Source: Planctomycetaceae bacterium
Lineage (GTDB): Bacteria; Planctomycetota; Planctomycetia; Pirellulales; UBA1268
DNA: 50,694 bases
Assembly (NCBI GenBank): GCA_005789975.1
Contig: SXWC01000017.1
Location: forward strand, 1 to 50,694
Direction: 5' to 3'
Part shown: positions 11,468-48,063 of the stretch, piece by piece
How the letters are laid out: every line of letters starts with the position of its first letter
How positions within the stretch are numbered: position 1 is the stretch's first letter
Program-made: the position numbers and the translations under genes
Notes under the pieces: model-generated
What the model was told of the DNA's origin: nothing
Database searches by the model: none
Seen by the model: only the letters and a program-made list of their open reading frames with translations

Positions 11468-11767
11468 CGGTTTTCCTGCCGAGAGAACGGCTTTGGCGAC
11501 TCTCGACGTCGCTCCCCGTGCGGTTCCACCCAAGGATAGCGTGGACAAAGTCATCCATGAACATTGTCCACTTGATCGACCGGAGAAAACGCTGCTTGAG
11601 CCGTCGATTCTTTTCCTCCAAAGTCCGAAGCCGTCACACCTCGGCAACGCCGAACGGCAGGCTGCTTTCTGCCCATCGAAAACCCACTCTCTCTGGTGAC
11701 GCCAAGGTCAATAAACCGAACACTCAGGATGGATCAAGAAAAAGGGGAGGACGTCACCACCGCCGGT
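11468..11767. other. 300-bp non-coding gap with a dispersed upstream module
   Basis: This stretch separates the gamma subunit stop from the metallopeptidase start. It is visibly less GC-rich than its neighbours and holds one copy of the dispersed module (11541-11608, minus orientation). I see no convincing gene: the short ORFs lack a start with a ribosome site and have no family signature. Confidence 0.6.
11541..11608 (-). repeat. Dispersed upstream module, copy 1 (dyad GTGGACAA-N15-TTGTCCAC)
   Basis: A perfect 8-bp inverted repeat (11541-11548 and 11564-11571) encloses a 15-base core that reads TCATGGATGA on the minus strand. It is followed outward by CCGGTCGATC. The same layout recurs at 38490-38540 and 48010-48060, with the same 15-base spacing. 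It lies about 75 bp upstream of the metallopeptidase start, with a TATCCT -10-like box directly next to it. Confidence 0.65.
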
Positions 11768-12625
11768 TCATACCTGCGGGATCCGCAGGAGTGCCGCCAT
11801 CCTCCGGTAGGGGAGCACGGGGCCGTCGCGGCAGATGAAGAGCGGGCCGAACTGGCAGAGGCCGCAGTGGGCCACCGCACAGGCCATGTTCCGCTCGAGC
11901 GAGAGAAAGACATCGTCCGCTGCCACGCCACCTGTGGTCGCCGCCTCGGCCACGCCCACCATCATCGGATCGGGTCCGCAGCAGAGGATCGTCGTTGCGG
12001 ATGGATCGCGGATCGCGGGTGCAAGCAGATCGGTGACCAGACCGATCGGACCGCTCCACGCCCCCCCAGGGTCGTTCACGATCGTGCGGACATCGATCCC
12101 GGCCGCCCGCCAGCCGTCGTACTCGCGCGCATAGAGCAGACCTTCCGGCTGCCTCGCCCCGTGGAGCACCGTGACGGAGCGGCAGGCCCGCCCGGCCGCC
12201 AGACACAGGATCGCTGCCCGCTGCGAGGCGAGGCCCAGGCCGCCGGCGACGATGATGACGTCACGCCCGGCCACCTCGGCCACGGGCCAGGGTGTTCCGA
12301 AGGGACCGCGGACAAATACCTGATCGCCGACGCCGAGCCGGGCGAGCGCGTCGGTGACGTTGCCCACGGCGCGGACGGTATGGGCGAGCGTTTTCCGGCC
12401 GGCAGGATCAGAGCTCACCGAGATCGCCGCCTCGCCGATCCCGGGCAGGTAGAGCATGTTGAACTGGCCGGCGACGAATCGGTACTGATCGCGGGCGAGC
12501 ACGTCCTCGAGCTCGAGTTCATAGGTCCGTACCCCGGGCGTCTCGGGCGTGATCCCGCGGATCCGCGCGGCGTGCGATCGCCAGGGACTCTCCCGCGAGG
12601 CGGGGCCTGACAAGTGCCCGCTCAT
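11768..12625 (-). CDS. hyhG: Group 3b hydrogenase gamma subunit (FAD/NAD(P)-binding, [2Fe-2S])
   Basis: A 285-aa ferredoxin-NADP-reductase-fold protein. The N-terminal half is the FAD-binding barrel; [17 protein letters not shown] is the nucleotide-binding glycine loop. The C-terminal half ends with a Cys-rich cluster site, [20 protein letters not shown], of the dihydroorotate-dehydrogenase electron-transfer-subunit type. It exchanges electrons with NAD(P)H. The start ATG 12625 overlaps the beta stop by ATGA, so it is coupled to beta. The delta subunit is not next to it; a 300-bp gap and a peptidase gene intervene. Confidence 0.9.
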
Positions 12626-13869
12626 GACGCAGTCCCGCCGGTCGGTGACGTGCCGGACGGCGATCCGCCATCGGGGGTCGTCCGGATCGCGGCGATCTCC
12701 TCGGTGACATCGATGCCGACGGGACACCAGGTGATGCAGCGCCCGCAGCCGGTGCAGCCCGACGTGTCGAACTGGTCGATCCAGCCGGCGAACTTGTGCG
12801 TCAGCCACTGGCGATACCGGGCGGCCGTCGCGCTCCGCACGCTGTGGCCGTGAATCCTGGCGTGATCGAGCGAGAAGCAGCTCGCCCACTGCCGCTCGCG
12901 ATCGACATGATCACCGGAAAGATCGGCAACCTCCTGCACCGACGAACAAAAGCAGGTCGGACAGACGAGCGTGCAGTTGGTGCAGGAGAGGCACCGCGTG
13001 GCCACCTCCTCCCAGCGGGGATGCTCGAGGTTCGTCATCAGCAGGTCGCGGATGCCGTGGGTGTCGAGGCTGCGGGGCCGGGGCTCGCCGTCGACCGGCC
13101 GCCGGGCGTGCATCCCCGCGGCAAGCGCACGCGAGACACCCCGCGTCTTTTCGACCTCCTCCATCGAGCAGCCGGGGATGATCGCCCCCGTCGCCATCGC
13201 CCCGGCGAGCACGGCCGCCCCGCGGTCGCTGCCCACCTCGCAGGTGAAGTCGGCATCGAGCTCCGTGAGCGCCAGGTCGAACCCCGGTCCCGCGGCCGGG
13301 CCGCTGCCCATCGAGTGGCAGAAGCAGGTGGCCGCCGCCCGCCGACAGTTGACCGCGACGAGAAAGAGCCGCTCGCGCCGCGACTTGTAGGCCTCGTCAA
13401 CCCAGCCGCTGCCGAGGAAGACCCGGTCTTGGACCGCGAGCGCGGCCAGATCGCAGCCGCGCACGCCCAGCACCGCCAAGGGAACCGCCGCCGCGGGGGG
13501 AGGTGACTGGCTCCACGAGCCGGATGCCTGGACGAACGACGCGATCGTTTCCCGCGCGGGGAAAAGGAAGTTCTTGAGCGAGTGGGGGCCGACGACGTGG
13601 TCGAACGTACCGGCGGCGGGATCGTGCCTGAGCCGATACATGCCGCCGTCCTGCTCGTCGAGCCAGCCGGTGGGCAGCTCGGCCACGCCGCGAAGGTCAC
13701 GGATCACAATCGCCCCGTCGGACACCTGCGGCCCCACCACGCGATGACCGGTCCGCCAGAGCACGTCGATCACGGACTGAAGGCCGGTTCGGTCGAGCCT
13801 GTGGAAGGAGCCGACGGCAGGTGGGGACGTGGGCATCGAGGCCTCGACGACGGGGTGACCTTCCTGCAA
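12622..13869 (-). CDS. hyhB: Group 3b hydrogenase beta subunit ([4Fe-4S] ferredoxin type)
   Basis: A protein of up to 415 aa from the sulfhydrogenase beta family. Two [4Fe-4S] sites are visible in the last third, [14 protein letters not shown] and [16 protein letters not shown]. The N-terminal domain has [14 protein letters not shown], typical of the family. Beta and gamma shuttle electrons between the hydrogenase dimer and NAD(P). The first Met (13869) and a second Met 11 residues in (13836) are both possible starts; MPTSPPAVG at the latter looks natural. It is first in its operon and divergent from psuG. Confidence 0.9.
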
Positions 13870-14128
13870 CTGTCGATGCTACGGCCCCGGGATGCAAACC
13901 CCGCCGCTCCCCATCGCGTCAACCGTCTGCTACACCGGGGGACATGATCGCCAAGCCAGCCGTCGCGAGAGCCTTCGGCGTGCCACCGGGCACGATCGAG
14001 CGGGGCGTCGTGTCGGCAGGTGTCACGATCGAAGACCGGGGGAACCGGGGTTCGACGGCCGTCAGTTCCGCGATCGCCCCGCAGCGTCACTTCGACTGGT
14101 TTGGGACAGCCGCCGTGGAGCCATCCGC
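13870..14128. other. 259-bp divergent gap between hyhB and psuG
   Basis: The gap should hold the promoters of the group 3b operon (minus) and of psuG (plus). An open frame starting at ATG 13944 crosses it, but I see no ribosome site or recognisable protein family, and it overlaps the psuG start in another frame. No clear repeat or hairpin was found. Confidence 0.4.
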
Positions 14129-15040
14129 ATGAGCGACCTCTTTCACGTCTCGCCAGACGTCACCGCGGCGGTCGCGGGCGGCCGTGCCGTGGTGGCGCTC
14201 GAAACCACGCTCGTGACGCACGGCCTCCCGCAGCCCGATGGCGAGCGGGTGGCGGCCGCGCTCGAGGAGGTTGTCCGCGCGCGGGGGGCGACCCCGGCCA
14301 CGATCGGCATTCTCGACGGCTCTGTCCGCGTCGGGCTCACGCGCGACGACCTCGCGAGGCTCGCGGCGACTCCCCATCCGGTGAAGGTCAACCTCGGCAA
14401 CTTCGCGGCGGAGTTGGCGGCCGGAGGCTCTTGTTCCACGACCGTGGCGGCGACGATGTTTGCCGCCTGGAGGGCGGGAATCCGCGTGTTCGCCACCGGG
14501 GGCATCGGCGGCGTCCATCGCGGCGCGACCGAGACGGGCGACGTCTCGGCGGACCTCACGGCGCTGTCGAGGTATCCCGTGGCCGTGGTCTGCGCCGGGG
14601 CGAAGGCGATCCTCGACCTGCCACGAACCCTCGAGATGCTCGAAACCCTCGGCGTGCCGATCCTGGGCATGGCCACGGCCGAGTTTCCGGCCTTCTATCG
14701 CCGGGAAAGCGGCCTCCGGGTGGATCGCCGCTGCGACACGATCGCCGAGGTGGCTGCCGCGGTCCGCACGCACTTCGACCTCGGCTTCACATCGGGGCTC
14801 GTGATCGCCAATCCGGTGCCCGAGGCGGACGCCCTGCCGAGGGAACTCCACGATTCGGCGCTGGGCACGGCACTCGTGGAGGCGATCGAGGTGAGCGGTC
14901 GCGAGGTCACGCCCTACCTGCTCGACCGCATGCGGGCCCTCACCGGCAACGCGAGCGTGAAGACCAACGAGGCCCTCCTTCTCAACAACGCCCACGTCGC
15001 GGCCGACCTCGCCGTGGCCCTCGCCCGGACACCGCGCTGA
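14129..15040 (+). CDS. psuG: Pseudouridine-5'-phosphate glycosidase
   Basis: A 303-aa enzyme that reversibly splits pseudouridine 5'-phosphate into uracil and ribose 5-phosphate. It has the family motifs ALETTLVTHGLPQP (catalytic Glu), GGIGGVHRGA, and VVCAGAKAILDLPRTLE (Schiff-base Lys), and the C-terminal TGNASVKTNEALLLNNA. Length matches the family. No psuK kinase is seen nearby, so phosphorylation of pseudouridine must be encoded elsewhere. Its uracil product is the substrate of the preT-preA pathway 2 kb downstream. Confidence 0.94.
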   Translation: MSDLFHVSPDVTAAVAGGRAVVALETTLVTHGLPQPDGERVAAALEEVVRARGATPATIGILDGSVRVGLTRDDLARLAATPHPVKVNLGNFAAELAAGGSCSTTVAATMFAAWRAGIRVFATGGIGGVHRGATETGDVSADLTALSRYPVAVVCAGAKAILDLPRTLEMLETLGVPILGMATAEFPAFYRRESGLRVDRRCDTIAEVAAAVRTHFDLGFTSGLVIANPVPEADALPRELHDSALGTALVEAIEVSGREVTPYLLDRMRALTGNASVKTNEALLLNNAHVAADLAVALARTPR

Positions 15041-15054
15041 CACCGCCCCTCCGC

Positions 15055-15093
15055 CCTGATCGGGCCTCCTGATCACACCTCCTGATCGGGCGA
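15055..15093. repeat. Three tandem 13-bp repeats (CCTGATC...) between convergent genes
   Basis: CCTGATC occurs at 15055, 15068 and 15081, exactly 13 bases apart: CCTGATCGGGCCT, CCTGATCACACCT, CCTGATCGGGCGA. They fill the 69-bp gap between the stops of psuG and pdxH. The first unit overlaps a small GCCC...GGGC dyad. A bidirectional transcription end is possible. Confidence 0.6.
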
Positions 15094-15109
15094 GGCGTGT
15101 CGTCGCGGC

Positions 15110-15757
15110 CTACGGGGCGAGCCGTTCGAGCTTCCAGTTTCCGGCGGCGTCGCGGTGAAAGACGAGCCGATCGTGCAGTCGGCTCGGCCGCCCCTGCCAA
15201 AACTCGATCCGCTCGGGCAGCAGGCGAAAGCCGCCCCAGTTGGCCGGTCGCGGGATCTCCGCATCGTCCGGGTGCTCCGCGCGAAACCGTGCGAAGAGCG
15301 ACTCGAGCGCTTCCCGGTCGGGAATCACCCGGCTCTGCGGCGAACTCAGCGCGCCGATCCGTGAAGCGGTCGGCCGCGTCCGGAAATACTCGTCAGACTC
15401 GGCCGCGGTCTTCCGCTCCACGGGGCCCTCGATCCGCACCTGCCGTTCGAGCTCGGCCCAGTGGAAGGTCAGCGCGGCCCGGGGATTGGCGGCGAGTTCG
15501 CGGCCCTTCTGGCTGTCGTAGTTCGTGAAAAAGGAGAAGCCGCGGGAGTCGAAGCCCCGCAGCAGCACGATCCGGGCCGAGGGGCGGCCGTCGGGCGTCG
15601 CGGTGGAGAGCGTCATCGCCTCCGGCTCCGGCAAGCCCGCCGCGACGGCGTCGTCGTACCAGGCCGAGAACTGGCCGATCGGATCGCGATCGACCGTCGC
15701 CTCGTCGAGTTCGCCCCGCTCGTATTCCTTGCGGGCGTGCGTGGTCCTGTGTTGCAT
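15110..15757 (-). CDS. pdxH: Pyridoxamine/pyridoxine 5'-phosphate oxidase
   Basis: A 215-aa FMN-dependent oxidase making pyridoxal 5'-phosphate. Family signatures include [34 protein letters not shown] for FMN and substrate binding, and the C-terminal [11 protein letters not shown]. It starts one base after the stop of the amidase gene, so both are transcribed together. PLP is the cofactor of the class III aminotransferase in the same neighbourhood, which may explain its place here. Confidence 0.95.
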
Positions 15758-15758
15758 G

Positions 15759-17018
15759 TCAGCAGCTCCCTGAACGAGTCGCGACCCAGTGCATCGTCTT
15801 CTCCGCGAGGCGGTCGAGCGCCGCCACCGCCAGCTCGAGGTGGTCGCGTCGCGTGTCCTCGATTTTGCTGTGGCTGATGCCCCGGAGGCTCTGCACGAAG
15901 AGCATCGCCGTGGGCACGCCGGCCCTCGCCATCTCCGCCGCGTCGTGCAGCGGGCCCGACGGGAGGCGGTGCGACGTGCCGCAGGTCTCGCGAACCACGT
16001 CGTCGGCGAAGGCGATCAGATCGGGATGGAACGGTGCCGGAGGAATGTGACAGAGGCGCTCCCACGCGACGTCCACGCCCCCCTCGGCCGCGAACCGCGC
16101 CGCCGCATCGCGGGCCTCGGCATGCATCGCGGCCAGCGCCGCCGCGTCGAGGTGCCGCTGATCGAGCGTGATCCTGCATTCCTCCACCACGCTCGTCACG
16201 ATCCCCGGAAGCGTGGTGCAGGAGCCGATCGTGCACACGCCGCCGTGACTGCGGGCGGCGATCGCGTAGATCTCCTGGGCCATTTTTGCGGCGGCGAGAA
16301 ACGCGTCACGGCGGCGGTTCATGGGCGTGCTGCCCGAGTGCGCCGCCTGTCCGCGAAACGTCAGCGCGTGCCGTTCGACGCCGAACGTCCCGAGCACGGC
16401 GCCCAGTGGCAGTCCGAGATCGAGGAGCACCGGCCCCTGCTCGATGTGGAGTTCGAGGTAGGCCGCCGCCGAGGCGAGCTCGCAGCCGCTCTCCTTGACC
16501 CGCTCAAACTCGATGCCGACGCGCCGCAGGGCGTCGGGCAGGCCGATGCCCTGAGCGTCCACGAGCCTCCGCGCCTCGTCGAGGTCGAGACTGCCGCAGC
16601 AGGCCGCGGAGCCGAACAGGCTCTTGCCGAACCGGGCTCCCTCTTCATCGGCCCAATCGACGACGCGGACGGTGACGGGTGGTTTCCCGGCGTGCTGAAC
16701 GCAGATCCGGCGGAGCACCTCGACGCCGGCGAGCAGGCCGAGGCAGCCGTCGAGCCAGCCGCCGTTGGGCACGGAGTCGAGATGGCCGCCGATCACGACG
16801 GCGCGGTCGCTGGCTCCCCGCAGCGTGGTCCAGCGATTGCCGGCGGTGTCGTCGTGAATCTCGACGGGGAGACCGGCGAACCGCTCGCGAAACCACCGCC
16901 GGGCCTCGACCCACACCGGCGTGAAGGCCACCCGCTGGGCGCCTTCGTCATCGGCGGTCAGCGTCCGCAACTCCTCGAGTTCACGGATCGTTCGCGAGGA
17001 GTCGGCCGTGAAGAGCAT
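15759..17018 (-). CDS. Zn-dependent amidase, M20 family (beta-ureidopropionase / N-carbamoyl-amino-acid hydrolase type)
   Basis: A 419-aa enzyme starting at ATG 17018; the open frame extends 32 residues further upstream but without family similarity. The metal-site motifs [29 protein letters not shown] and LELHIEQGP are those of AllC/HyuC/PydC amidases; [11 protein letters not shown] lies in the dimerisation domain. Beside dihydropyrimidine dehydrogenase, dihydropyrimidinase and an aminotransferase it most likely cleaves N-carbamoyl-beta-alanine to beta-alanine, CO2 and ammonia. Allantoate or N-carbamoyl-L-amino-acid hydrolysis cannot be excluded from sequence. Divergent from preT with a 211-bp shared upstream region. 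Confidence 0.87.
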
Positions 17019-17229
17019 GGCGGTATCGTGACGCGCCCCGGTATACGAGGGCAACCCGGGTGACGGAGGCCGCGGCACAACGACGGGTGGCCGGCGGTCC
17101 GGACCCGTCGCCATTTCCGGAGTGAACGTCCCCGGCCTATCTTAAGAAGGCCGCTTACGGAGACCGCTCGGGGAAACCGATGGAACGATGCGGCCCAGCA
17201 GACGACCGCATCAGGAGACACGTCCAGCG
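17019..17229. promoter_or_regulatory. Divergent promoter region of the pyrimidine catabolic genes
   Basis: These 211 bp separate the amidase-pdxH operon (minus) from preT-preA (plus). A TATCTT box at 17138-17143 could be a -10 for preT; AGGAGA at 17215-17220 is a good ribosome site for ATG 17230. No regulator gene is adjacent, so a shared operator would be recognised by a remote protein. Confidence 0.4.
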
Positions 17230-18678: not shown

Positions 18679-18691
18679 CGATCACCCGACC

Positions 18692-20002: not shown

Positions 20003-20017
20003 CGCTCGCACAGACCC

Positions 20018-20953: not shown

Positions 20954-20985
20954 CCCACTCGTCGGATCGGTCGGGCCCGCGGCCA

Positions 20986-38370: not shown

Positions 38371-38449
38371 GACCTACGCGACGGGCGACTTCTCATGCCT
38401 CCGAAAACTGGGAAAGCCGAACGAGCAGACTGTGGAAGAAGTCTGCCCG

Positions 38450-38546
38450 AGCAGGGATGCGAGGATCGTCGACCGCGAAAATCCTCGGCGTTTGAGCCGG
38501 TCGATCCACTGGACAAACATCATGGATGACTTTGGCCACGAACAGC
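38450..38546 (+). repeat. Dispersed upstream module, copy 2
   Basis: Collinear with the copy at 47970-48064. GGATGCGA...CGACCGCG...CGGCGTTT...CCGGTCGATC leads into the dyad CTGGACAA (38509-38516), N15, TTGGCCAC (38532-38539). The 15-base core contains TCATGGATGA. It ends at the TAGACT box of the next gene. Confidence 0.65.
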
Positions 38547-38552
38547 TAGACT
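38547..38552 (+). promoter_or_regulatory. Candidate -10 box (TAGACT) next to upstream module copy 2
   Basis: AGCTAGACTC follows the dyad directly. A TSS would fall near 38559, at or just before the GTG start considered for the next gene, and well before the alternative ATG 38637. Confidence 0.4.
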
Positions 38553-38558: not shown

Positions 38559-39569
38559 GTGTCGTTCGCAATCTCGGAACGGGCACCGAGGGGCGGAGAA
38601 ACGACCGCGTCAATCATCCCGCACGTCGTCCGGGCCATGCTCCAAAGACCGCTGCTGACGCCGATCGTCCTCGGTTTCTGGTTGGTGACCAGCGGCTGGC
38701 TGGTCGGCACCAAAATCCTGCCGGCGTTCAATCCCGGCCCGCCGCCCGGCCATCAGGCGTTGTATGCGGCGGGCAACCGGACGATTCCCGTGGCGTGGAC
38801 GGTGTGGCTCAACGAGCGGCCCGTGGGCTGGGCGCTGGCGACCTCGAGCCGCACCGCCGCGGGCGGCCTTGGGATCAACACCCACCTGCATGTCGAGAAC
38901 CTCGTGCTCGACGAGATGCTGCCGGCCTGGGTGAGCCGGTTGCTTCAATCCACGGCCCCGGCCGGCACGACCGTCGGATTCGACGCCCGCGGCGGCCTGG
39001 CCATCGACGCGGCCGGTGCGTTGCGGTCCTTCTCGTCGCGCATCTCGGTGCCGGGCACCGCCGAGGAGATCACGCTCGACGGCACCATCGACGACGGTCG
39101 CGTGGTGGCGACCATCAAGGCGGGAGGCATGGAGTATGAGGCAAGCAGGCACCTTCCATCGCATGTGATGATCGGCGACGAGCTGTCGCCGCAGGCCACG
39201 CTGCCCGGACTCTCCGAGGGCCGCTGCTGGACCGTGCCCGTCTACAGTCAGCTGCGGCCGGGCCGTGCGTCGATCGAACTCCTCCACGCCGAGGTCGGAA
39301 GCGAGGAGACGCTCTACTGGGAAAACACCCTGACGCGGGTGCACGTCGTTTCGTATCGCGAGGATCCCACGAGCGACCGCGAGCCCCGCTGCCGGTCGTG
39401 GGTCGATCTCTCGGGCAGGGTTCTCAGGCAGGAGACCGCGATCGCCGGGGCGCGGATGCTGTTCGTCCGCCGGACCGACGAGTCGGCGGCCCAGCTGGCC
39501 GAGGAGATGATGCTGCCGTCCGATGCTGCCGGCGCCGCCGCCCCGTCGACGGAGGCGGGCATCCGATGA
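38559..39569 (+). CDS. Membrane-anchored hypothetical protein of an ABC exporter operon
   Basis: Up to 336 aa from GTG 38559. ATG 38637 (310 aa) is an equally plausible start because the -10 box at 38547 leaves no room for a leader before the GTG. One membrane helix follows (LLTPIVLGFWLVTSGWLVG), then a mostly beta extracytoplasmic domain ending in an Ala/Ser-rich tail. It has phrases such as WTVWLNERPVGWALATSS seen in uncharacterised planctomycete proteins. It overlaps the ABC ATPase by ATGA, so it is coupled to it and probably a partner of the transporter. I do not recognise a named family. Confidence 0.8.
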   Translation: MSFAISERAPRGGETTASIIPHVVRAMLQRPLLTPIVLGFWLVTSGWLVGTKILPAFNPGPPPGHQALYAAGNRTIPVAWTVWLNERPVGWALATSSRTAAGGLGINTHLHVENLVLDEMLPAWVSRLLQSTAPAGTTVGFDARGGLAIDAAGALRSFSSRISVPGTAEEITLDGTIDDGRVVATIKAGGMEYEASRHLPSHVMIGDELSPQATLPGLSEGRCWTVPVYSQLRPGRASIELLHAEVGSEETLYWENTLTRVHVVSYREDPTSDREPRCRSWVDLSGRVLRQETAIAGARMLFVRRTDESAAQLAEEMMLPSDAAGAAAPSTEAGIR

Positions 39570-40303
39570 TCGAGTTTGACCATGCGAGCCGCACCTTCGG
39601 GCCGAAGACGGCCGTTTCGGACCTCACGCTTTCGATCCCGAGGGGGGAACTCTTCGCGCTCCTGGGCCCCAACGGCGCCGGCAAGACGACCACGATCCGG
39701 ATGCTCGTGGGCCTGCTGCAGCCATCCCGCGGGGCGGTGCGGGTGTGCGGCCACGATCTGGTCAAGGACGCCCGCGGCGCGCATCTGCACCTCGGCTACG
39801 TGCCCGACGAGCCCTGCCTCTACGACAAACTCAGCGGCCGGGAGTTTCTCTGGTTCATCGCCGAAATGTTCGGCATGCCCCGCCGGGAGGCGGCCGCGCG
39901 GATCGAGCGCGAGATCGAGCACTTCGAACTCGGCGAGTTCGCCGACGACCTCTCCGAGAGCTATTCGCTGGGGATGAAGCAGCGGCTGGTCTTCGCGGCG
40001 GCATTCCTGCACGACCCGAGCGTGCTGGTGCTCGATGAGCCGATGGTCGGGCTCGATCCTCGCAGCGTGCGGATCGTCAAGGATCTGCTCGCCGCGCGGA
40101 CCCGGGAGGGAATGACCGTCTTCATGTCCACGCACACGCTGGCGATGGCCGAGGAGATGGCGGACCGCGTGGGGATCATGGTCCGCGGACAGTTGCGGTT
40201 TTTGGGAACGGTGGCGGAGCTTCGCGACCAGATGGCGCTGGAGGCGACGACGCTCGAGCACCTCTACCTCGAACTCACCTCGGCCCGGATCGGCCGGCCA
40301 TGA
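39566..40303 (+). CDS. ABC transporter ATP-binding protein
   Basis: A 245-aa ABC-2 type ATPase (CcmA/NatA-like). Walker A is GPNGAGKTTTIRM. The signature region SLGMKQRLVFAAAF has a degenerate C-loop (S-L-G-M rather than L-S-G-G), which is common in this subfamily. Walker B is SVLVLDEPMVGLDP and the switch His is in FMSTHTLAMAEE. It overlaps both neighbours by ATGA. The substrate is unknown; export is inferred from family and partner. Confidence 0.92.
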   Translation: MIEFDHASRTFGPKTAVSDLTLSIPRGELFALLGPNGAGKTTTIRMLVGLLQPSRGAVRVCGHDLVKDARGAHLHLGYVPDEPCLYDKLSGREFLWFIAEMFGMPRREAAARIEREIEHFELGEFADDLSESYSLGMKQRLVFAAAFLHDPSVLVLDEPMVGLDPRSVRIVKDLLAARTREGMTVFMSTHTLAMAEEMADRVGIMVRGQLRFLGTVAELRDQMALEATTLEHLYLELTSARIGRP

Positions 40304-42069
40304 CGGGACGGGAGCCGGGTCACGACATCGTGCGACCGCTCCCCTTCGAGGAGGAGTCACGGCTCTTTCTCCGGCTCAGGGCGACGCTGTCCTGGCAGAC
40401 GGTGCGTTCGTTGTTTCGCGACTCACGGCTGCGGGTGACGCTGGTCCTGCTGCTCAGCGGACTGTTTTGGGGTTCGTTGTACGGGCTCTTCGTCGAGGCC
40501 TTCGCCTTTCTCGACGACCTGCACGCCGACGTGATCTCGCTGCTGTTCAACGCCTTCTTCTCGTCGCTCATGGTGATGCTCGTCTTCTCCGCCGGCATCC
40601 TCACCTACGGAGGCATGTATTGCTCGGCGGAGGCCCGGCTGCTCCTCACGCTGCCGGCGCGGGCGGAGATGATCCACGCCCACACCTTCCGCGAGGCGGT
40701 CTGGTTTTCCAGCTGGGGCTTCGTGCTTCTCGGGAGCCCGATGCTCGCCGCCTACGGAGTGGTGCGGCACTCGGCCTGGCCCTATTTTCTGCTCATGCTG
40801 CCGTTCATGATCGCCTTCGTCGTGATCCCGGCGGCCATCGGCAGCATCTGCTGCATCCTGCTCGTGGCGTGGCTCCCGCGACTGCGGCTCCACGCCCTGT
40901 CGGCGGGCGTGGTCGTCGCCTGCGCGGCCGCGGCCTGGCTGGCCTGGTCGATGTCCTCGCGGGCCCCGCTCGACACGATGTCGGCGGCCTGGTTCGAACG
41001 GACGTTCGCCCGCCTCGCGCTGACCGAACAGAAGTTCCTGCCGAGCTGGTGGCTCTCGAGCGGCCTGATCGAGGCTGCCCGCATCGACGGTGACGGCCGG
41101 ATGTCGGTCGGGGGCCTGAGCGAGGCGGTCAGGTTTCTCTGCCTGCTCGTCGCCAATGCGCTGGTGCTGCAGCTCTTGGCGGGCTGGCTGGCCCGCGTGG
41201 CCTACCGGCGCGGCTACAGCCAGCTCTCCGCCGAGGTGCCGGCCCGTCGCCGCCGCCCTCAGGGAGGGTTCGACCGCTTTCTCGGCTCCGCGGGCTTCGC
41301 CGCCGGGAGGCCGCTGCGGCTCCTGCTCGTCAAGGACCTGCGGCTCTTTCGCCGCGACGTCTCGCAGTGGTCGCAGTTCGTCATCTTCTTCGGCCTCCTG
41401 GGGCTCTACTTCGTCAACCTCCGCTCGTTCAACTACAAAAACTCCTACGCCTCGATGATCGGCTTCCTCAACCTGGCCGTCCTGGGCCTCATCCTCTCGA
41501 CATTCACGACGCGGTTCGTGTTTCCGATGATCAGCCTGGAGGGGCAGCGGTTCTGGATCCTGAGACTGCTCCCGGTGCACCGGGATCAGATCGTCTGGTC
41601 GAAGTTCATCTTCTCGTTCGTCGGCGGACTGATCCCGTGCTGCAGCCTCGTGCTGCTCAGCGACTCCATGCTCGGGATCCCCTGGTGGCTCGTCGCCCAG
41701 CACGAACTCTGCTGCGTCGTTCTCTGCATGGGGCTCTCGGGCATCGCCGTGGGGCTCGGTGCCCGGATGCCGGAACTGAGGGAGTCGTCCCCGGCGAAGA
41801 TTTCCTCCGGCTTCGGCGGCACGCTTTGCCTCGTGATCAGTTCGCTGTTCATCATGATCGTGGTGGTTCTGGCGGCCGTGCCGAACTACCTTTTCATGGT
41901 GGGGGACACGCTCGGACCGGCATTCCTCGCCCCGGCCGGCATGCTCGCCTGGGCCGGCGGACCCTGGGGCACCGCGACGAGCCTCGGGCTGGTCGTGGCG
42001 CTGGGCCTGCTGACCACGTTCGTGCCCTTGTTCCTCGGAATCCGCGCCTTCCGGGTGCTGGAGGCCTAG
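40300..42069 (+). CDS. ABC transporter permease, large (ABC-2-like)
   Basis: A 589-aa integral membrane protein with about 12-14 hydrophobic segments in two halves separated by a soluble stretch (about 235-330) that contains a basic patch (PARRRRPQGG). The arrangement resembles a duplicated ABC-2 exporter membrane domain. It is translationally coupled to the ATPase and ends 228 bp before mqnA. Substrate unknown. Confidence 0.86.
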   Translation: MTGREPGHDIVRPLPFEEESRLFLRLRATLSWQTVRSLFRDSRLRVTLVLLLSGLFWGSLYGLFVEAFAFLDDLHADVISLLFNAFFSSLMVMLVFSAGILTYGGMYCSAEARLLLTLPARAEMIHAHTFREAVWFSSWGFVLLGSPMLAAYGVVRHSAWPYFLLMLPFMIAFVVIPAAIGSICCILLVAWLPRLRLHALSAGVVVACAAAAWLAWSMSSRAPLDTMSAAWFERTFARLALTEQKFLPSWWLSSGLIEAARIDGDGRMSVGGLSEAVRFLCLLVANALVLQLLAGWLARVAYRRGYSQLSAEVPARRRRPQGGFDRFLGSAGFAAGRPLRLLLVKDLRLFRRDVSQWSQFVIFFGLLGLYFVNLRSFNYKNSYASMIGFLNLAVLGLILSTFTTRFVFPMISLEGQRFWILRLLPVHRDQIVWSKFIFSFVGGLIPCCSLVLLSDSMLGIPWWLVAQHELCCVVLCMGLSGIAVGLGARMPELRESSPAKISSGFGGTLCLVISSLFIMIVVVLAAVPNYLFMVGDTLGPAFLAPAGMLAWAGGPWGTATSLGLVVALGLLTTFVPLFLGIRAFRVLEA

Positions 42070-42297
42070 CAGCCGGTGTCTCGTGTCGATTGCCGCTGAA
42101 CTGCGGCGGCCGTCGAGCAGGGGACGGGCGTTGTTTCCCGGGGTCGAAATGGTGGAAATTGCCCGGGTCGGCCCCGCGGCTGCCGGCCCCCGGGCGGCTT
42201 TCCCCCGGGCCGTGAGCAGGGGCCGGTTAGCGGGTGCCGGAAAATGCGGTTGATCCCGGGTGGCTAGCCCGACGAAAATCCATCTGCCGGCACCCCC
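42070..42297. other. 228-bp intergenic region with repeated CCCGGG and an inverted repeat before mqnA
   Basis: CCCGGG occurs five times in about 140 bp, and GAGCAGGGGMCGG occurs twice (42115-42127, 42214-42226). GGGTGCCGG (42232-42240) is inverted as CCGGCACCC (42287-42295), two bases before the mqnA ATG. No gene is seen. Part may end transcription of the ABC operon and part may form the mqnA leader. Confidence 0.5.
42232..42295 (+). promoter_or_regulatory. Inverted repeat that could pair over the mqnA start region
   Basis: A perfect 9-bp inverted repeat with a 46-base spacer ends two bases before ATG 42298. If transcribed, the right arm would occupy the position of a ribosome site, so the stem could limit translation. 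No ribosome-binding sequence is otherwise visible there. Confidence 0.4.
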
Positions 42298-43200
42298 ATG
42301 ATCCACCAGCCCTCCCAGCACCGAATCCGCCGGAACGACCCCCGTCGGCTTCGCGTGGGAGCCGTGCAGTATCTCAACACCCGTCCCCTCGTCCACGGCC
42401 TGGCGGCGGCGGGTGTCGATGTGCGGTACGACCTGCCGAGTCGGCTCGCCGATCAGCTCGCATCGGGGATCCTCGATGTGGCCTTGATCCCGTCGATCGA
42501 GGTATTCCGTGGCGGCCATTCCGTGGTGAGCAACGCCTGCATCGGATGTCACGGTCCGGTGATGAGCGTGAAACTGTTTTTTCGGAAGGCCCCCGAAAAG
42601 ATCACCACGCTGGCCGTGGACGAGGGGTCTCGAACCAGTGCCACCCTCGCCCGAATCCTGCTGGCTGAGCGACACGGCGTCTTTCCGACGGTCGAAACCC
42701 TGCCGATCGGCTCAGGGCTCGCCGACACCGCCGCGGATGCCGTGCTGCTGATCGGTGACAGGGCGATCGATTCCCGGGGCTCCACCGAGCGGGCCGCCGG
42801 GTGTTTCCAGGTGATCTGGGATCTCGGTGACGAGTGGTGCCGCTGGACGGGACTGCCGTTCGTGTTTGCCGTCTGGGCGGCCCGGGATGGTGTCGATGCC
42901 GGCCCCCTCGAGCCGTTGCTCGCCCGGGCCCGCGACTCCGGCATCGCGAATCTTGCCGCGATCGCCGCCGCGGAAGCGGCCGCCCACGGGCTCACGGTGC
43001 CGCAGTGCCTGAGTTATCTCCACGACAACCTGCACTATCACCTGGAGGCCCGCGAACTCGAGGCGCTCGCCCTTTTCCGGCGGCATGCCGTCGGCCTGAA
43101 CCTCGCCCCGGCGGAGCGGGAGACGTTTCAGGCGTCGAAGCGGGGGAGGCGGCCGGCCGGGATCATGGTGGCCGACCACGAGAGGAGCGATTCGAGATGA
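42298..43200 (+). CDS. mqnA: Chorismate dehydratase MqnA
   Basis: A 300-aa protein of the MqnA/MqnD periplasmic-binding-like fold. LRVGAVQYLNTRPLVHGL at the N-terminus and DVALIPSIEVFRGG, VVSNACIGCHGPVMSVKLF are diagnostic. It dehydrates chorismate to 3-[(1-carboxyvinyl)oxy]benzoate, the first futalosine-route step to menaquinone. The first 17 residues are not conserved, so the true start could be further in. Followed with ATGA overlap by mqnC. Confidence 0.93.
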   Translation: MIHQPSQHRIRRNDPRRLRVGAVQYLNTRPLVHGLAAAGVDVRYDLPSRLADQLASGILDVALIPSIEVFRGGHSVVSNACIGCHGPVMSVKLFFRKAPEKITTLAVDEGSRTSATLARILLAERHGVFPTVETLPIGSGLADTAADAVLLIGDRAIDSRGSTERAAGCFQVIWDLGDEWCRWTGLPFVFAVWAARDGVDAGPLEPLLARARDSGIANLAAIAAAEAAAHGLTVPQCLSYLHDNLHYHLEARELEALALFRRHAVGLNLAPAERETFQASKRGRRPAGIMVADHERSDSR

Positions 43201-44369
43201 ATGCAGGCCGGATTTCCTCGATCCTCGACGATGTCGTCGCCGGCGGCCGGTTGTCACCGGGCGACGCCGTCACCCTGCTCGAGTCACACGAACTCGCCGC
43301 GATCGGCCGGGCCGCCGACGCCGTCTCCCGCAGGCTTCATCCCGAGCCCTACCGCACCTACAACATCGACCGCAACATCAACTACACGAACGTGTGCACG
43401 GCGGTGTGCGACTTCTGCGCCTTCTACCGTGGGCCGAAGCATCCCGAAGGCTACGTGCTCGACCGGGGGACGATTCTCAGGAAGATCGAGGAGATGGTCG
43501 CGATCGGTGGCGATCAGATCCTGATGCAGGGAGGCCTGCATCCCACGCTCACCCTCGAGTGGTATGAAGACCTCCTCCGCGACATCAAGCGGGAGTTTCC
43601 CGCCGTCAACGTCCACGGCTTCTCGCCCCCGGAGATCCACCACTTCACCACGGTTTCCAAGCGGCCGCTCCGCGAGGTGCTCGAGCGATTGGCGCGGGCG
43701 GGGCTGGGCTCGCTGCCCGGTGGCGGCGGCGAGATCCTCGTCGATCGCGTCCGCGAGGCGATGACCCGCGGGAAGGTGCTGACCGACGACTGGCTCGAAG
43801 TGCACCGGCAGTGGCACCAGCTCGGCGGACGCAGCACGGCGACGATGATGTTCGGTCACATCGAGACCCTCGCCGAGCGGGTGGAGCACCTCGATCGCCT
43901 GCGGGAACTGCAGGACGAGACCGGCGGCTTCACCGCCTTCATCTGCTGGTCGTTCCAGCCCGACAACACCGAAATGGACGACATTCCCCCCACCGGGGCC
44001 TTCGAGTACCTGAAAACGCAGGCGGTGGCCCGCCTCTACCTCGACAACTTCGCCAACATCCAGTCGAGCTGGGTGACGCAGGGTCGTGAGATCGGCCAAC
44101 TGGCGTTGCTCTTCGGAGCCAACGACATGGGCAGCCTGATGATCGAGGAAAACGTGGTCAGTGCCGCGGGAACCGTCCATCACCTCACGCTCGACGAGAT
44201 GCGGTCGGCCATTTCCGAACTCGGCTGGATTCCGCGCCGCCGAAACGTGTTTTACGAACTCTTCGAGGAGGAGCCGCAGGCATCTCCCGCCGATCCCGGG
44301 CGAGGGCGTGCCGGGTTCGTGCCCCTTCCGGTGACGTCGGCCGTCCCGATGGCTTCGACTGCCCCGTGA
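43197..44369 (+). CDS. mqnC: Cyclic dehypoxanthine futalosine synthase MqnC (radical SAM)
   Basis: A 390-aa radical SAM enzyme. The cluster motif CTAVCDFCAFYR (Cys-x3-Cys-x2-Cys) follows TYNIDRNINYTNV, as in MqnC. GGDQILMQGGLHPTL and ENVVSAAGTVHH in the C-terminal part fit MqnC rather than MqnE. It cyclises dehypoxanthine futalosine. It overlaps mqnA (ATGA) and the next amidohydrolase (GTGA). Confidence 0.93.
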   Translation: MNAGRISSILDDVVAGGRLSPGDAVTLLESHELAAIGRAADAVSRRLHPEPYRTYNIDRNINYTNVCTAVCDFCAFYRGPKHPEGYVLDRGTILRKIEEMVAIGGDQILMQGGLHPTLTLEWYEDLLRDIKREFPAVNVHGFSPPEIHHFTTVSKRPLREVLERLARAGLGSLPGGGGEILVDRVREAMTRGKVLTDDWLEVHRQWHQLGGRSTATMMFGHIETLAERVEHLDRLRELQDETGGFTAFICWSFQPDNTEMDDIPPTGAFEYLKTQAVARLYLDNFANIQSSWVTQGREIGQLALLFGANDMGSLMIEENVVSAAGTVHHLTLDEMRSAISELGWIPRRRNVFYELFEEEPQASPADPGRGRAGFVPLPVTSAVPMASTAP

Positions 44370-45634
44370 GCCGGACGGACGCATCCGATCTGACGATCCG
44401 CTGCTCGCACCTCCTCCCGATGCGGGGACCGGCGATCGCCAACGGCTGGATGAGGATCCGCCGCGGGAGGATCATCGCGGTCGGCGGCGGCGCCCGGCAC
44501 GATCGGCCCGGCACCCGGGTGATCGACCTGGGCGACGCAATCGTGATGCCCGGGCTCGTCAACGCCCACACACATCTCGAGTTTTCCGACACGCCCGCCC
44601 CGCTCGATGCCGCCGGCGGCCTGCCCGGCTGGATCGGCAGGGTGGTGGCGCTGCGGCGGTCGCGGACGGCTGAAGAGGGCCCTGCCGACCGGGCCGGGCC
44701 TGCCATCCGTGCGGGCCTCCGCGAGAGTGCCGCCGCCGGGGTCACGGCGATCGGCGAGATCGCCACCTCGGTCCCCGCCGATGCCTTCGCCGGAGGCGGT
44801 CCGCGAATCCGCGCCTTCCGCGAGGTGCTCGGGCTGTCTCCCACGGCGGGGCACGCGGCGCTGCGATCGTGCATCCGCGACGTGGGGCGACTCGCCGGGC
44901 GGGGCGTGGCACCGGGCCTGTCGCCCCACGCCCCGTATTCGGTCGCCGCGCCGCTGGGTGCGGCGCTCGTGGCCGAGGCGGTCCGGAGGAGGCTTCCGCT
45001 GGCGATGCATGTTGCCGAGAGCCTGGCGGAAGAGGAACTCATCGCCTCCGGAAGCGGACCGTTTCGTCGGTTGCTCGAAGGGCTCGGTGCCTGGGATGCC
45101 GCGCATCCTCCCCTGCTGCTGTCCGCGGCGGACTGGATTTCGCGACTCGCCCGCGGTCCCCGCGGCGTCGTCGTGCATGGCACATACCTCGGCCGCGACC
45201 CGGTCGCGCTCGCCCGGCTGGCCAGGCATCGCGATCGGCTCTGCGTGGCCGTCTGCCCGCGGACCACGCTCGCGCTTTCGGGCATGCTGCCGCCGGTGGC
45301 GGTGTTCCGGGAGGCCGGCATCCGCGTGGCGATCGGCACCGACAGCCGCGCCTCGAACCCCGACCTCTCCGTGCTCGCCGAGTGCCGCACGCTCGTCGCC
45401 GCCGGCGTCTGCTCGCCCGCGGAATCGCTCCGCATGGCCACGGTGCAGTCCGCCTGGGCGCTCGGCTTCGACCGCTCTTCAGGAGTGCTCGCCCCGGATC
45501 GCCCCGCCGACTTCGTCATTCTCCGGCCGATGACCGTCGATCGAGATCCCCATCGAGCCGTGCTCGATCCCGCGACCCGCATCCTGGCCACGCTCCGCGC
45601 GGGCAGGGTCATCGCCGGCACGCTCGACGGCTGA
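44366..45634 (+). CDS. Amidohydrolase, probable aminofutalosine deaminase (MqnX-like)
   Basis: A 422-aa metal-dependent amidohydrolase starting at GTG 44366, overlapping mqnC. The metal motifs are NAHTHLEF, LSPHAPYSV, MHVAES and IGTDSRASN. In the futalosine pathway a deaminase (MqnX) converts 6-amino-6-deoxyfutalosine to futalosine. Position directly behind mqnA-mqnC makes this the best guess; a general cytosine/adenosine-type deaminase is the alternative. MqnE, MqnB and MqnD are not in the window. Confidence 0.82.
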   Translation: MSRTDASDLTIRCSHLLPMRGPAIANGWMRIRRGRIIAVGGGARHDRPGTRVIDLGDAIVMPGLVNAHTHLEFSDTPAPLDAAGGLPGWIGRVVALRRSRTAEEGPADRAGPAIRAGLRESAAAGVTAIGEIATSVPADAFAGGGPRIRAFREVLGLSPTAGHAALRSCIRDVGRLAGRGVAPGLSPHAPYSVAAPLGAALVAEAVRRRLPLAMHVAESLAEEELIASGSGPFRRLLEGLGAWDAAHPPLLLSAADWISRLARGPRGVVVHGTYLGRDPVALARLARHRDRLCVAVCPRTTLALSGMLPPVAVFREAGIRVAIGTDSRASNPDLSVLAECRTLVAAGVCSPAESLRMATVQSAWALGFDRSSGVLAPDRPADFVILRPMTVDRDPHRAVLDPATRILATLRAGRVIAGTLDG

Positions 45635-45672
45635 TCGACCGATCCTCCGGCATGACGGCATCAGCCGGGGGG

Positions 45673-46542
45673 CTACAGCCGGCAGTTGCCGATTCGCGTC
45701 TCGATCACGGCGCTGGCGCCGATCGCCTCGAGCCGCTCCATCACGGCGTGGACATCGCCCCGTTTCACCATGGCCCGCACCGCGCACCATGCCTGATCCT
45801 CGAGCGACATCACCGTCGGGGAGTTGAAACCGGGAGTGATCTTCTCGGCCTCGGCGAGCCGCGTGCGCAGCACGTTGTATTCCAGCAGCGACCAGCTCCG
45901 GGCGATCACGATGCCTTCCAGACGCCGCACGATCCGGTCGGCGAGTGCGGTGTCGGCGAGGCCCGGGTGCTGGACGAGCACCGTCTCGTAGCGGCCGATC
46001 TCGTCGAGCACGTGGAGCCTGTTGGCGGCGAGCGTGCTGCCGGTCTCGACGAGATCGACGATCGCATCGGCGACCCCCAGGGCGATCATCACCTCGACGC
46101 TGCCGGAGAGTTCGACGAAGTGGGCCTCGACACCGCGATCGGCCAGCCAGCGGCGGGTGATCCGCGGGAAGCTCGTGGCGACGCGGCGGCCCGCGAGTTT
46201 CCGCGGATCATCGATGGTGGCGTCGTCGGGGACGCAGAGCGCCAGCCGGCAGGTGCCCACGCCGAGGTCGAGACGGTGCCTCACGTCGGCGCCGCTCTCC
46301 GCCACGAGGTCGGCGCCGGTGATCCCGAGATCGATGGCCCCCTCGGCGGTGAGCACCGGAATGTCGTCGGTGCGGAGAAACGTCACCTCCACCGGCATGT
46401 CCTTGCAGCGGGCGAAGAGGCTCCGCTCCGTGCGGCGAAACGAGAGTCCCGCATCGGCGAGCAGTTGCCCGGCGAGTTCCGCAAGCCTGCCCTTGCTGGG
46501 GATGCCGATCCGCAGCAGCCGTTCCCTCACGTCATCGCTCAT
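45673..46542 (-). CDS. hisG: ATP phosphoribosyltransferase, long form
   Basis: A 289-aa HisG_L. LRIGIPSKGRLAE, DLGITGADLV and ELSGSVEVMIALGVADAIVDLVETGSTL are the catalytic-core signatures. The extra C-terminal part (about 215-289, TVMSLEDQAWCAVRAMV) is the ACT-like domain that binds histidine for feedback control, so no HisZ is needed. It performs the first step of histidine biosynthesis. ATGA overlap with hisE upstream. Confidence 0.94.
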   Translation of the reverse strand: MSDDVRERLLRIGIPSKGRLAELAGQLLADAGLSFRRTERSLFARCKDMPVEVTFLRTDDIPVLTAEGAIDLGITGADLVAESGADVRHRLDLGVGTCRLALCVPDDATIDDPRKLAGRRVATSFPRITRRWLADRGVEAHFVELSGSVEVMIALGVADAIVDLVETGSTLAANRLHVLDEIGRYETVLVQHPGLADTALADRIVRRLEGIVIARSWSLLEYNVLRTRLAEAEKITPGFNSPTVMSLEDQAWCAVRAMVKRGDVHAVMERLEAIGASAVIETRIGNCRL

Positions 46543-46907
46543 GTCGAGGCTCCCTGGGCGCCGCCCTGCCGTGCCGCTTTCTCGTCGAGACCCGACACGC
46601 CGAACCGCCGGGCCAGCTCGTCTTCGACGCTCGCCAGGGGCACGTTGCGACAGGCGAGGAGCACGAGGGTGTGGTAGATGAGATCGGCCGCCTCGGAGAC
46701 GACCCGTTCGTCGGTCTCGCCGCAGGCTGCCTGGACGAATTCGGCGGCCTCCTCGGAGACCTTGGCTCCGGCGGCCGCGGGGCCCCCGGCCAGGAGTTTG
46801 GTGGTGTAGGATCGCACGGACGGGTCGCGTTTCCGCGAGGCGATCACCCCCTCCAGCGTTTCCAGGACTTCGCCAGAGCGGCGGGCCGATGTTCGAGAAT
46901 CCGACAC
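46539..46907 (-). CDS. hisE: Phosphoribosyl-ATP pyrophosphatase
   Basis: A 122-aa protein of the MazG-like HisE family: LETLEGVIASRKRD, SYTTKLLAGG, AKVSEEAAEFVQA and ADLIYHTLVLL. It hydrolyses PR-ATP, the step after HisG. The open frame runs to 47438, but upstream codons lie inside miaA and lack similarity. GTG 46907 (SDSRTSARRSGEV) gives the usual length; ATG 46991 is the next option. Either start is divergent from and very close to miaA. Confidence 0.9.
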   Translation of the reverse strand: MSDSRTSARRSGEVLETLEGVIASRKRDPSVRSYTTKLLAGGPAAAGAKVSEEAAEFVQAACGETDERVVSEAADLIYHTLVLLACRNVPLASVEDELARRFGVSGLDEKAARQGGAQGAST

Positions 46908-47908
46908 GAGTTCCAACGACTCCCGATGACGCCCCCGCCGGCCGGCCGGATGGCTCCGGGCCGCCGACCGCGGGGACCACAACTCTAGCATGGCCCGGCG
47001 GGGGCTCGTGCCACCCCGCCCCGCCGCTCGGGGAGGATTGCTGGTTTCTGTCGGGTCCCACCGCCTCCGGAAAATCGGCCCTGGCGGTGCGGTTGGCCCG
47101 CCGGCTCGGGGCGGAGATCGTGAGCGTCGATTCGATGGCCGTCTACCGGGGCCTCGACGTGGGCACGGCCAAGCCCACCCCGGAGCAGCGGCGGCTCGTG
47201 CCCCACCACGTCGTGGACGTGGCGACCGCCGCCGCCCCCTACAGCGTGGCGATGTGGCTCGAGGAGGCGACTCGCGCCGTGGCCGACTGCCGGGCCCGCG
47301 GCCGCGGCATCCTCTTCGTGGGCGGCACCCCGCTCTACCTCCGGGCCCTCCGCGACGGCCTGACATCCCTGCCGCCGGCCGATCCCGCCCTCCGCGACCG
47401 GCTCGTGGCCGAGGCCGACGCCCACGGCCCGGAGACACTCCACCGCCGGCTCGCCGGGATCGATCCCGCTTCGGCCGCCCGGATTCATCCCCGGGATGCG
47501 AAGCGGATCATCCGGGCGCTCGAAGTGGCCTCGACCGCGGGCCGGCCCCTGTCTTCCGTCCTGCCCGCCGAGCAACATCTGCGGTGCGAGGAGCGTCGTC
47601 GCTTCGAGGAGCGCCTGCTGATCCTCGATCTGCCCCGGGCCGTGCTCAACGAACGGATCGACCGCCGTGTGGAGCGGATGTTTTCCGAAGGGCTCGTGGA
47701 GGAGACCCGCGCGGCCATGCTCCTCCCCGGCGGCATCGGTCCGACCGCCCTTCAGGCCGCCGGCTATGCCGAAGCGATCGACCTGATCGAGGGCCGGATC
47801 GACCACGACGAGGCCGTGCGCCGCACGCAGCAGCGCACCCGGCAGCTCGCCAAACGGCAACTGACGTGGCTCCGCAGCTTCAAGCAGGCCACCTGGATCG
47901 CCGCGTAG
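46889..47908 (+). CDS. miaA: tRNA dimethylallyltransferase
   Basis: A protein of up to 339 aa. The P-loop FLSGPTASGKSALAV starts near residue 55; EIVSVDSMAVYRGLDVGTAK and FVGGTPLYLRAL follow as in MiaA. It adds the dimethylallyl group to A37 of tRNAs that read UNN codons. The first 45 residues (from ATG 46889) are Pro/Gly-rich and poorly conserved, so the true start may be further in. From 46889 the gene overlaps the hisE 5' end by 19 bp. Confidence 0.9.
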   Translation: MFENPTRVPTTPDDAPAGRPDGSGPPTAGTTTLAWPGGGSCHPAPPLGEDCWFLSGPTASGKSALAVRLARRLGAEIVSVDSMAVYRGLDVGTAKPTPEQRRLVPHHVVDVATAAAPYSVAMWLEEATRAVADCRARGRGILFVGGTPLYLRALRDGLTSLPPADPALRDRLVAEADAHGPETLHRRLAGIDPASAARIHPRDAKRIIRALEVASTAGRPLSSVLPAEQHLRCEERRRFEERLLILDLPRAVLNERIDRRVERMFSEGLVEETRAAMLLPGGIGPTALQAAGYAEAIDLIEGRIDHDEAVRRTQQRTRQLAKRQLTWLRSFKQATWIAA

Positions 47909-47969
47909 CCCTCCCAGCCCCGAAAACCGATCACCCGCCGTCACCGGCAGCGGTGGAACGGGTCTGTCC

Positions 47970-48063
47970 GGGCGGGATGCGAAGACCATCGACCGCGGAG
48001 CCCCGCGGCGTTTCCGCCGGTCGATCGACCGGGCAAGGGTCGTGGATGAGTTGGGCCACCGCC
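47970..48063 (+). repeat. Dispersed upstream module, copy 3
   Basis: Collinear with the copy at 38450-38546: GGATGCGA...CGACCGCG...CGGCGTTT...CCGGTCGATC, then CCGGGCAA (48029-48036), N15, TGGGCCAC (48052-48059). The dyad is weaker than in copy 1. It leads directly into TGCTAGCAC. Confidence 0.6.

Follow-up and report, generated by a model that had tools for sequence, protein, structure and literature searches.

The stretch of DNA analysed here, the window, spans 50,694 nucleotides of contig SXWC01000017.1 from a Planctomycetaceae bacterium (assembly GCA_005789975.1). It contains three similar short segments (copies 1–3; Table 1), each with an inverted repeat, or dyad, beside a −10-like promoter box upstream of a gene. 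What kind of element is this, and is it there to regulate those genes? A sequence-only reading had offered two answers, the operator of an unknown regulon or a mobile repeat carrying a promoter, and kept decayed coding sequence as a further option. Our analysis indicates that the segments are copies of a non-autonomous DNA transposon, a miniature inverted-repeat transposable element (MITE), most probably mobilized in trans by an IS1182-like DUF772/DDE transposase into CTAG-like targets; we assign this reading a probability of about 0.93. The mobile option is borne out because the element is short and non-coding, occurs in many dispersed copies with sharp ends and terminal inverted repeats, is flanked by a 4-bp target duplication, is missing from an empty site and has ends that match those of an insertion sequence (IS).

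Distribution in related genomes

Strict patterns with at least 20 fixed bases had no match in genome and viral contig collections, being too strict for a diverged repeat. Relatives were reached through the protein encoded after copy 2 (38637–39569), which pointed to 39 planctomycete loci, many from genomes named after lakes. A profile of sequence alone, built from four copies, detects dispersed copies (E ≤ 1e-3) in 27 of 30 related genomes, with 1 to at least 125 copies per matching genome (the best 125 candidates per genome were scored). A structure model built from 24 copies (window copies 2 and 3 and 22 others from different genomes) matches 62 of the 72 genomes of one planctomycete family (G001–G072) at E ≤ 1e-5; the best 48 candidates per genome were scored, so high counts are lower bounds. 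In a draw at the level of the order, 37 of 196 genomes match the structure model (best 17 candidates per genome scored). Six of these lie outside the family set (G073, G075, G123, G158, G190 and G214) and all six are weak, with a best E-value of 6e-8. Strong matches are confined to one planctomycete family among the genomes searched.

Genomes G123, G158 and G075 have 8–16 weak structure-model matches each (best E 6e-8 to 2e-6) and perhaps hold a distant sister family of the repeat. Several copies (in loci L042, L043, L049, L052 and others) lie within ~150 bases of a contig end, so that metagenome assemblies of these organisms probably break at the repeat.

Element boundaries and target duplication

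For the anatomy of the element, 100 stretches around high-scoring copies were fetched from six genomes, in addition to 30 loci from the 30-genome search. The 167 profile hits in 170 sequences yielded 120 non-redundant full-length copies (model start ≤ 8, end ≥ 120, score ≥ 30), with partial and repeated copies excluded. Including the duplications, 83 of the 120 are exactly 127 bp long and some are ~13 or 26 bases longer; the core is ~119 bp, with a 4-bp duplication on each side. The sequence-only reading had thus located the copies correctly but described a unit that was too short, and copy 2 is a full element.

The boundaries are sharp, conservation stopping at outer 4-mers that read CTAG or variants of it. 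The two end 4-mers are identical in 36 of 120 copies, compared with 18.6 ± 3.1 after shuffling (reached in 0 of 5000 shuffles), and they share 333 matching letters against 292 ± 6.3. Agreement at the adjoining positions is at background. Since the end 4-mers agree above chance while their neighbours do not, the outer 4-mers are a 4-bp CTAG-like target duplication. Just inside lie imperfect terminal inverted repeats, CAGACTGTGGAACAAG and, on the reverse strand, CTGTCCGTGGACAAAG (from base frequencies in the 120 copies). The model also weakly matches the same place on the opposite strand in two loci, L121 and L122. Full elements usually have TAG at both ends; a few single ends read GTAG, and there is no GTAG or CGTC foot as a rule.

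Elements also occur as head-to-tail pairs in G014 (contigs C182, C88, C69 and C183). The C182 pair has one 4-bp duplication in common, as might result from insertion of one copy at another's border.

An insertion sequence with matching ends

An end-motif search in six genomes gave 5 to 93 matches per genome; the reversed motif, used as a control, gave 0 or 1 per strand. In G010, an open reading frame (ORF) of 455 codons begins 77 bp after one of the matches. Transposase domains above cut-off are DUF772 (PF05598, 57.7 bits), DDE_Tnp_1_6 (PF13751, 34.3 bits) and DDE_Tnp_1 (PF01609, 30.5 bits). The best NCBIfam model is IS1182 (NF033551); at 182.3 bits the match is below the curated family cut-off of 270, and we therefore call the transposase IS1182-like and do not file it as an IS1182 member. 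Relatives of this transposase were found in 3 of the 30 genomes. Where source databases name relatives, the entry is 'transposase', 'IS5 family transposase' or 'hypothetical protein', and many database relatives stand on contigs of ~1.5 kb, which in our reading is expected of a repeated IS.

In loci L191, L197 and L199 both IS ends match the end motif and each is flanked by CTAG. Judged by eye and with overlapping loci counted once, 12 of 17 distinct IS ends are flanked by CTAG; the other five are flanked by ATAG, CTGG, TTAT, TTAG and CTAA. No IS end was found in L198, and several other loci show a single end only. The left end of the L172 IS, CAGGCTGTGGATAAAG, recurs in G028, a genome with a decayed transposase gene and at least 125 MITE copies. 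In locus L183 (G010:C155:7500–11500) two end motifs face each other at 1046 and 2975–2990, ~1.9 kb apart, and the left one carries the first 44 bases of the MITE; this pair is perhaps another non-autonomous or composite element.

An empty site and the loci of homologous genes

The gene after copy 3 encodes a 248-residue peptidase of family C26, with a match in 66 of the 72 family genomes. An empty site corresponding to copy 3 exists in G001 and G002 (98% identity), where miaA again neighbours the C26 gene. Both have an uninterrupted ...GATG|CTAGCACC... here, whereas in the window the element precedes CTAGCACC; the alignment extends to the left side, and the join is at CTAG. The miaA–C26 spacer is longer in these genomes and holds other, unshared sequence further left.

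Homologous genes generally do not have the element beside them. It is absent from all 20 fetched loci of the C26 gene and from all 20 fetched loci of copy-1 gene homologues (34–82% identity, several of them distant), each covering up to 1.5 kb on either side. Of the 39 loci of the copy-2 gene, 35 extend at least 250 nt upstream, and one of these, L014, has the element. The L014 copy (5057–5129) is truncated and lies on the opposite strand, 71 nt upstream of the gene; it probably inserted near this gene independently. No element stands upstream of the gene in the closest relatives, L001 (82% identity) and L002 (79%), which by eye have CTACACT and CTAGGAT, respectively, in place of the CTAGACT of the window. 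Eight further orthologues mostly have TACACT, TAGAAT or TAGACT at this position (by eye). The site occupied in L051 is filled in G003, G005 and G008, and otherwise only a diverged G004 locus was found.

Two features of these loci concern the host. In 16 of the 20 fetched C26 loci (L206–L225) a conserved palindrome pair, GCTAGCAC, a short spacer and GTGCTAGCAC, lies upstream of the gene; it looks like a real operator. Several copy-2 gene orthologues (L001–L010) have, by eye, a CGTTTT-like stretch ~19 bases before the TACACT or TAGAAT box, and the two together are perhaps this lineage's own promoter form.

Placement relative to genes, stop codons and −10 boxes

For 111 copies with enough flanking sequence, genes were predicted with a small purpose-made codon-usage finder. 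Seven copies lie inside predicted genes, 36 have the stop codon of a neighbouring gene within the duplication (36 of 104 non-genic copies) and 68 are otherwise intergenic. The neighbouring gene pairs are −− (29), +− (27), −+ (22) and ++ (20); the remaining 13 copies comprise the seven inside genes and six with a neighbour missing. The sequence-only reading had placed the module upstream of genes, and the position of copies relative to start codons was proposed as a check. Copies in fact favour gene 3′ ends: 57 of 105 neighbouring 3′ ends lie within 20 nt of an element, compared with 6 of 96 5′ ends (p = 2e-14), a contrast that predicted starts placed too far downstream would inflate.

Much of this preference probably follows the target. 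CTAG sites outside elements in 40 large loci fall at stop codons (19), in other intergenic sequence (88) or in genes (65). CTAG-ended non-genic copies are at stops in 20 of 50 cases, against 19 of 107 background non-genic CTAG sites (p = 0.005), an enrichment of about twofold; against copy-bearing loci (12 of 52) the excess has p = 0.088.

A similar explanation probably applies to the −10-like boxes. A box does adjoin the dyad, as had been noted, but it consists wholly or partly of the target duplication plus host bases. The arrangement is likely to arise because CTAG is available in stop codons and in −10 boxes. In the case of copy 2 the box probably belongs to the host and overlaps the target duplication, because orthologues without the element keep similar boxes there. 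The repeat is only partly 'promoter-bearing': the element ends at the duplication. As a general property promoter carriage is rejected, a T three bases after the 3′ duplication being present in 18% of the 120 copies. In an exploratory comparison, made after the pattern had been noticed, this T is more frequent where the 3′ end faces a downstream gene (14 of 43, compared with 8 of 68 among the other copies, p = 0.013). For 5′ ends facing a gene the counts are 9 of 53 against 3 of 58 (p = 0.066), and for both ends pooled 23 of 96 against 11 of 126 (p = 0.002). A stricter count that requires both TA and T gives 11 of 43 against 5 of 68 at the 3′ end (p = 0.012) and 5 of 53 against 2 of 58 at the 5′ end (p = 0.26). 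Gene-facing 3′ ends read, for example, CTAGAAT, TTAGACT and CTAGACT, and copy 2 is of this kind.

Internal hairpins and compensatory changes

The interior of the element can be drawn as four hairpins. The dyad of the sequence-only reading is hairpin 4, and its conserved CCGGTCGATC is one arm of hairpin 3. In the 24-copy alignment used for the structure model, 86.5% of 876 cells are paired, a percentage biased by the structure having been drawn from these same sequences. Cells changed on both sides number 49, compared with 17.2 ± 3.5 after shuffling (0 of 500) and 4–19 in controls with the pairing partners slid. The 13 pairs with two-sided change fall in hairpin 3 (seven), hairpin 2 (three), hairpin 4 (two) and hairpin 1 (one).

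Compensated cells also exceed the shuffles within single genomes (61 against 20.9 in G014, 67 against 25.8 in G028, 7 against 2.0 in G010 and 10 against 4.7 in G019). One of the five genomes tested, G027, shows no excess (0 against 0.5). Subfamilies can account for part of this compensatory signal. Left to itself, RNAalifold draws hairpins 3 and 4 in part, along with two pairs of hairpin 2. Strong folding is seen in copies from relatives (z −4.3 to −6.5; five foldings of three copies), and in four of the five foldings hairpins 3 and 4 take the drawn form or come close to it.

Rfam gives no match in the window at the gathering score; in seven loci with intact copies or the IS its only match, to a 16S rRNA gene of L044, lies apart from the element. 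No U-run following the hairpins was seen by eye.

Copies in the window

All three copies are real: CCGGTCGATCNNNNGGNCAANNNTCNTGGATGA is exact at 11551–11583 (−), 38497–38529 (+) and 48017–48049 (+), with no match in 100 shuffles. Copies 2 and 3 are 76% identical across 96 bp, and copy 1 recognizably shares the 3′ half only, retaining hairpin 4 and part of hairpin 3; its remainder, possibly reaching 11664, is too decayed to align. The dyad, described as conserved, is perfect in copy 1, has two mismatches in copy 2 and is poor in copy 3. Each copy does lie upstream of a gene, at ~73, 87 and 149 nt from the start codon (read by eye; two also by gene model). The label 'exported metallopeptidase' for the gene after copy 1 could not be confirmed, as the ORF at 10697–11647 (−) has no Pfam match.

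The fourth, partial copy sits just upstream of the start of a NiFe-hydrogenase gene, placed at 335 by the gene model; an alternative start seen by eye is the ATG at 374, preceded by AAGGAG. The doubtful fifth copy begins at a CTAG containing the stop codon of the ABC-transporter gene 40300–42069. L027 has a clear copy (~13536–13661) at the equivalent position, in the interval that separates the ABC-transporter gene from the one that follows; the window offers no more than the doubtful match there.

When folded as RNA, the three named copies give weak structures (z −0.27 to −1.31). The weak folding and the lost pairs indicate that the hairpins are not kept here, and the window copies are decayed and probably inert. 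Copies 2 and 3 altered the sequence upstream of a promoter box and of an operator-like palindrome, respectively, and may have changed the expression of those genes.

Table 1. Features of the element and its surroundings in the window (model positions and scores of copies 1 and 2 from nhmmer)
Feature	Position	Strand	Details
Copy 1, recognizable 3′ half	11540–11594	−	model positions 64–118; 43.2 bits, E 1e-11
Copy 1, hairpin 4 (dyad of the sequence-only reading)	11541–11571	−	GTGGACAA-N15-TTGTCCAC, perfect
Copy 2, full-length element	38422–38549	+	model positions 3–127; 98.9 bits, E 7e-29; core 120 bp
Copy 2, target duplications	38422–38425 and 38546–38549	+	CGAG and CTAG; boundaries read from sequence
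Copy 2, hairpin 3	38468–38505	+	GTCGACCG ... CGGTCGAT; CCGGTCGATC within right arm
Copy 2, hairpin 4	38509–38539	+	7/10 pairs
TAGACT box beside copy 2	38547–38552	+	probably the host gene's own −10-like box; first bases are part of the CTAG duplication
Copy 3, element including duplications	47944–48069	+	66.7 bits; core 118 bp
Copy 3, target duplications	47944–47947 and 48066–48069	+	CCGG (taken as decayed) and CTAG
Copy 3, hairpin 3	47988–48025	+	ATCGACCG ... CGGTCGAT
Copy 3, hairpin 4, degenerate	48029–48059	+	5/10 pairs of the fuller stem
Host double palindrome	48065–48087	+	TGCTAGCAC ... GTGCTAGCAC, conserved; first CTAG is the insertion target of copy 3
Fourth copy, partial	281–339	−	hairpins 2 and 3; 25.7 bits, E 3e-6
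Fifth copy, doubtful	42066–42158	+	7.6 bits, E 0.065

Weighing the readings

Several observations count against the MITE reading or parts of it. No transposition event was observed. The L172-type transposase occurs in 11 of the 72 family genomes, with several copies broken, and the MITE in 62, so a different transposase may be the real mobilizer. By eye, the match between the L172 end and the MITE is limited to ~17 bp, and kinship is shown for the ends only. The end 4-mers are no longer identical in 84 of the 120 copies, and the copies analysed were taken from the highest scores and are hence biased towards intact ones. As regards the interior, the 13 pairs with two-sided change compare with 8.2 after shuffling (3 of 500), yet sliding the partners by +3 gives 15; this measure says little because the slide exceeds the observed count. 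The covariation rests mainly on hairpin 3, RNAalifold alone does not draw hairpin 1, and in the lowest-energy fold of the L046 + strand the element's two ends pair with each other, in place of hairpins 1, 2 and 4.

The alternatives fare considerably worse. An operator function of the copies within an unknown regulon would suit a dyad lying 73–149 nt upstream of three genes, and the truncated L014 copy, also upstream of a copy-2 gene, could be read in its favour. This reading fails because the fetched loci of homologous genes, L014 apart, have no element there and copies cluster at gene 3′ ends; copies also occur in both orientations and at both ends of genes, with target duplications and an empty site, and we consider an operator very improbable. 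We give equally little credence to a repeat of the repetitive extragenic palindrome (REP) or bacterial interspersed mosaic element (BIME) type, moved by a REP-associated tyrosine transposase (RAYT) of the Y1 class and tagged with GTAG or CGTC. Such repeats share palindromic hairpins, a mostly extragenic position and a partly tandem arrangement with our element, and passages of PMC3733652 report GTAG and CGTC repeats from planctomycetes. The unit here is 127 bp long with terminal inverted repeats and a 4-bp duplication, its ends are CTAG-like and duplicated instead of forming a GTAG/CGTC foot, and the IS with the same ends encodes a DDE transposase. Nor is a Y1 gene associated: 7 of 12 element-bearing genomes lack a Y1 match (E ≤ 1e-4; the metagenome-assembled genomes are incomplete), and five of six Y1 loci have no copy nearby. 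In the sixth, L260, a partial copy (920–1016) lies ~480 bp from the Y1-transposase domain, which may be chance because its genome, G014, is rich in copies.

A capture of the element as host RNA, in which transcribed 3′ hairpins would terminate or shield messages or keep neighbouring genes apart, draws on the compensatory changes between and within genomes, the strong single-strand folding of relatives' copies and the frequent position right after stop codons, with the stop inside the duplication. The occurrence of CTAG at stop codons accounts for most of that placement, with the roughly twofold excess given above; the hairpins have neither a visible U-run nor an Rfam match, and window copies fold weakly and have lost pairs. 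We judge this reading unlikely. Decayed coding sequence, with peptides ending MDDFGH-like, is hardly credible at all. In the three window copies one frame can be read through the core without a stop (by eye), but full elements usually have TAG at both ends and the conserved positions follow base pairing, with compensatory changes; by eye, copies 2 and 3 differ mostly at first codon positions, changing residues.

For the MITE reading, the comparisons suggest a likely mechanism. An IS1182-like transposase, encoded by its own IS with near-identical ends, would mobilize the MITE in trans. Insertion into CTAG-like targets would create the 4-bp duplication, and surviving copies would lie at stop codons and some −10 boxes, mostly where GC-rich genomes tolerate CTAG. 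The hairpins would serve the element, through shielding, transposition or 3′-end RNA structure, rather than host regulation. A host role for them is possible. A bolder proposal is that a four-hairpin RNA or single-stranded DNA interior has been under selection long enough for compensatory changes to build up between host lineages and that, with a 4-bp target equivalent to stop codons and −10 boxes in GC-rich genomes, intact copies serve the preceding genes as ready-made 3′ ends or insulators; in our view this is unlikely.

Comparison with known elements

Bacterial MITEs include RUP, NEMIS, Bcr1, ERIC and Nezha (according to passages of PMC3733652). The element described here has in common with them a short, non-coding unit, terminal inverted repeats, many mostly intergenic copies and an IS with matching ends. 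It differs in its 4-bp CTAG-like duplication, its IS1182-like ends and its four hairpins with compensatory change. ERIC is similar in length at 127 bp, which is probably coincidence. Like the IS1182 family, the partner transposase contains DUF772 and DDE_Tnp_1_6 and the target is a palindromic tetranucleotide; it differs in scoring below the family cut-off. The IS1182-family member IS1272 replaces inverted repeats, as described in passages of PMC5678879; here a 4-bp duplication is seen. The GTAG- and CGTC-tagged REP repeats treated in parts of PMC3733652 are likewise palindromic, extragenic and reported also in planctomycetes; our element is longer, has a target duplication and has a DDE and not a Y1 transposase as candidate mobilizer. 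No published description of this element was recognized in the literature searched, and the passages of PMC6461901 consulted contain nothing on such a repeat.

Implications

The element is a new family of an ordinary kind and not the binding site of a regulator, which removes a false regulon lead. With its model, many repeats between genes can be annotated in a family of lake planctomycetes whose members are mostly uncultured. The way it lands is a simple case of a rare 4-bp target, CTAG, steering a transposon to stop codons and, seemingly, to −10 boxes. The compensatory changes in the hairpins raise the question of what maintains structure inside a MITE; should the hairpins function within transcripts, the element would amount to a mobile 3′-end part.

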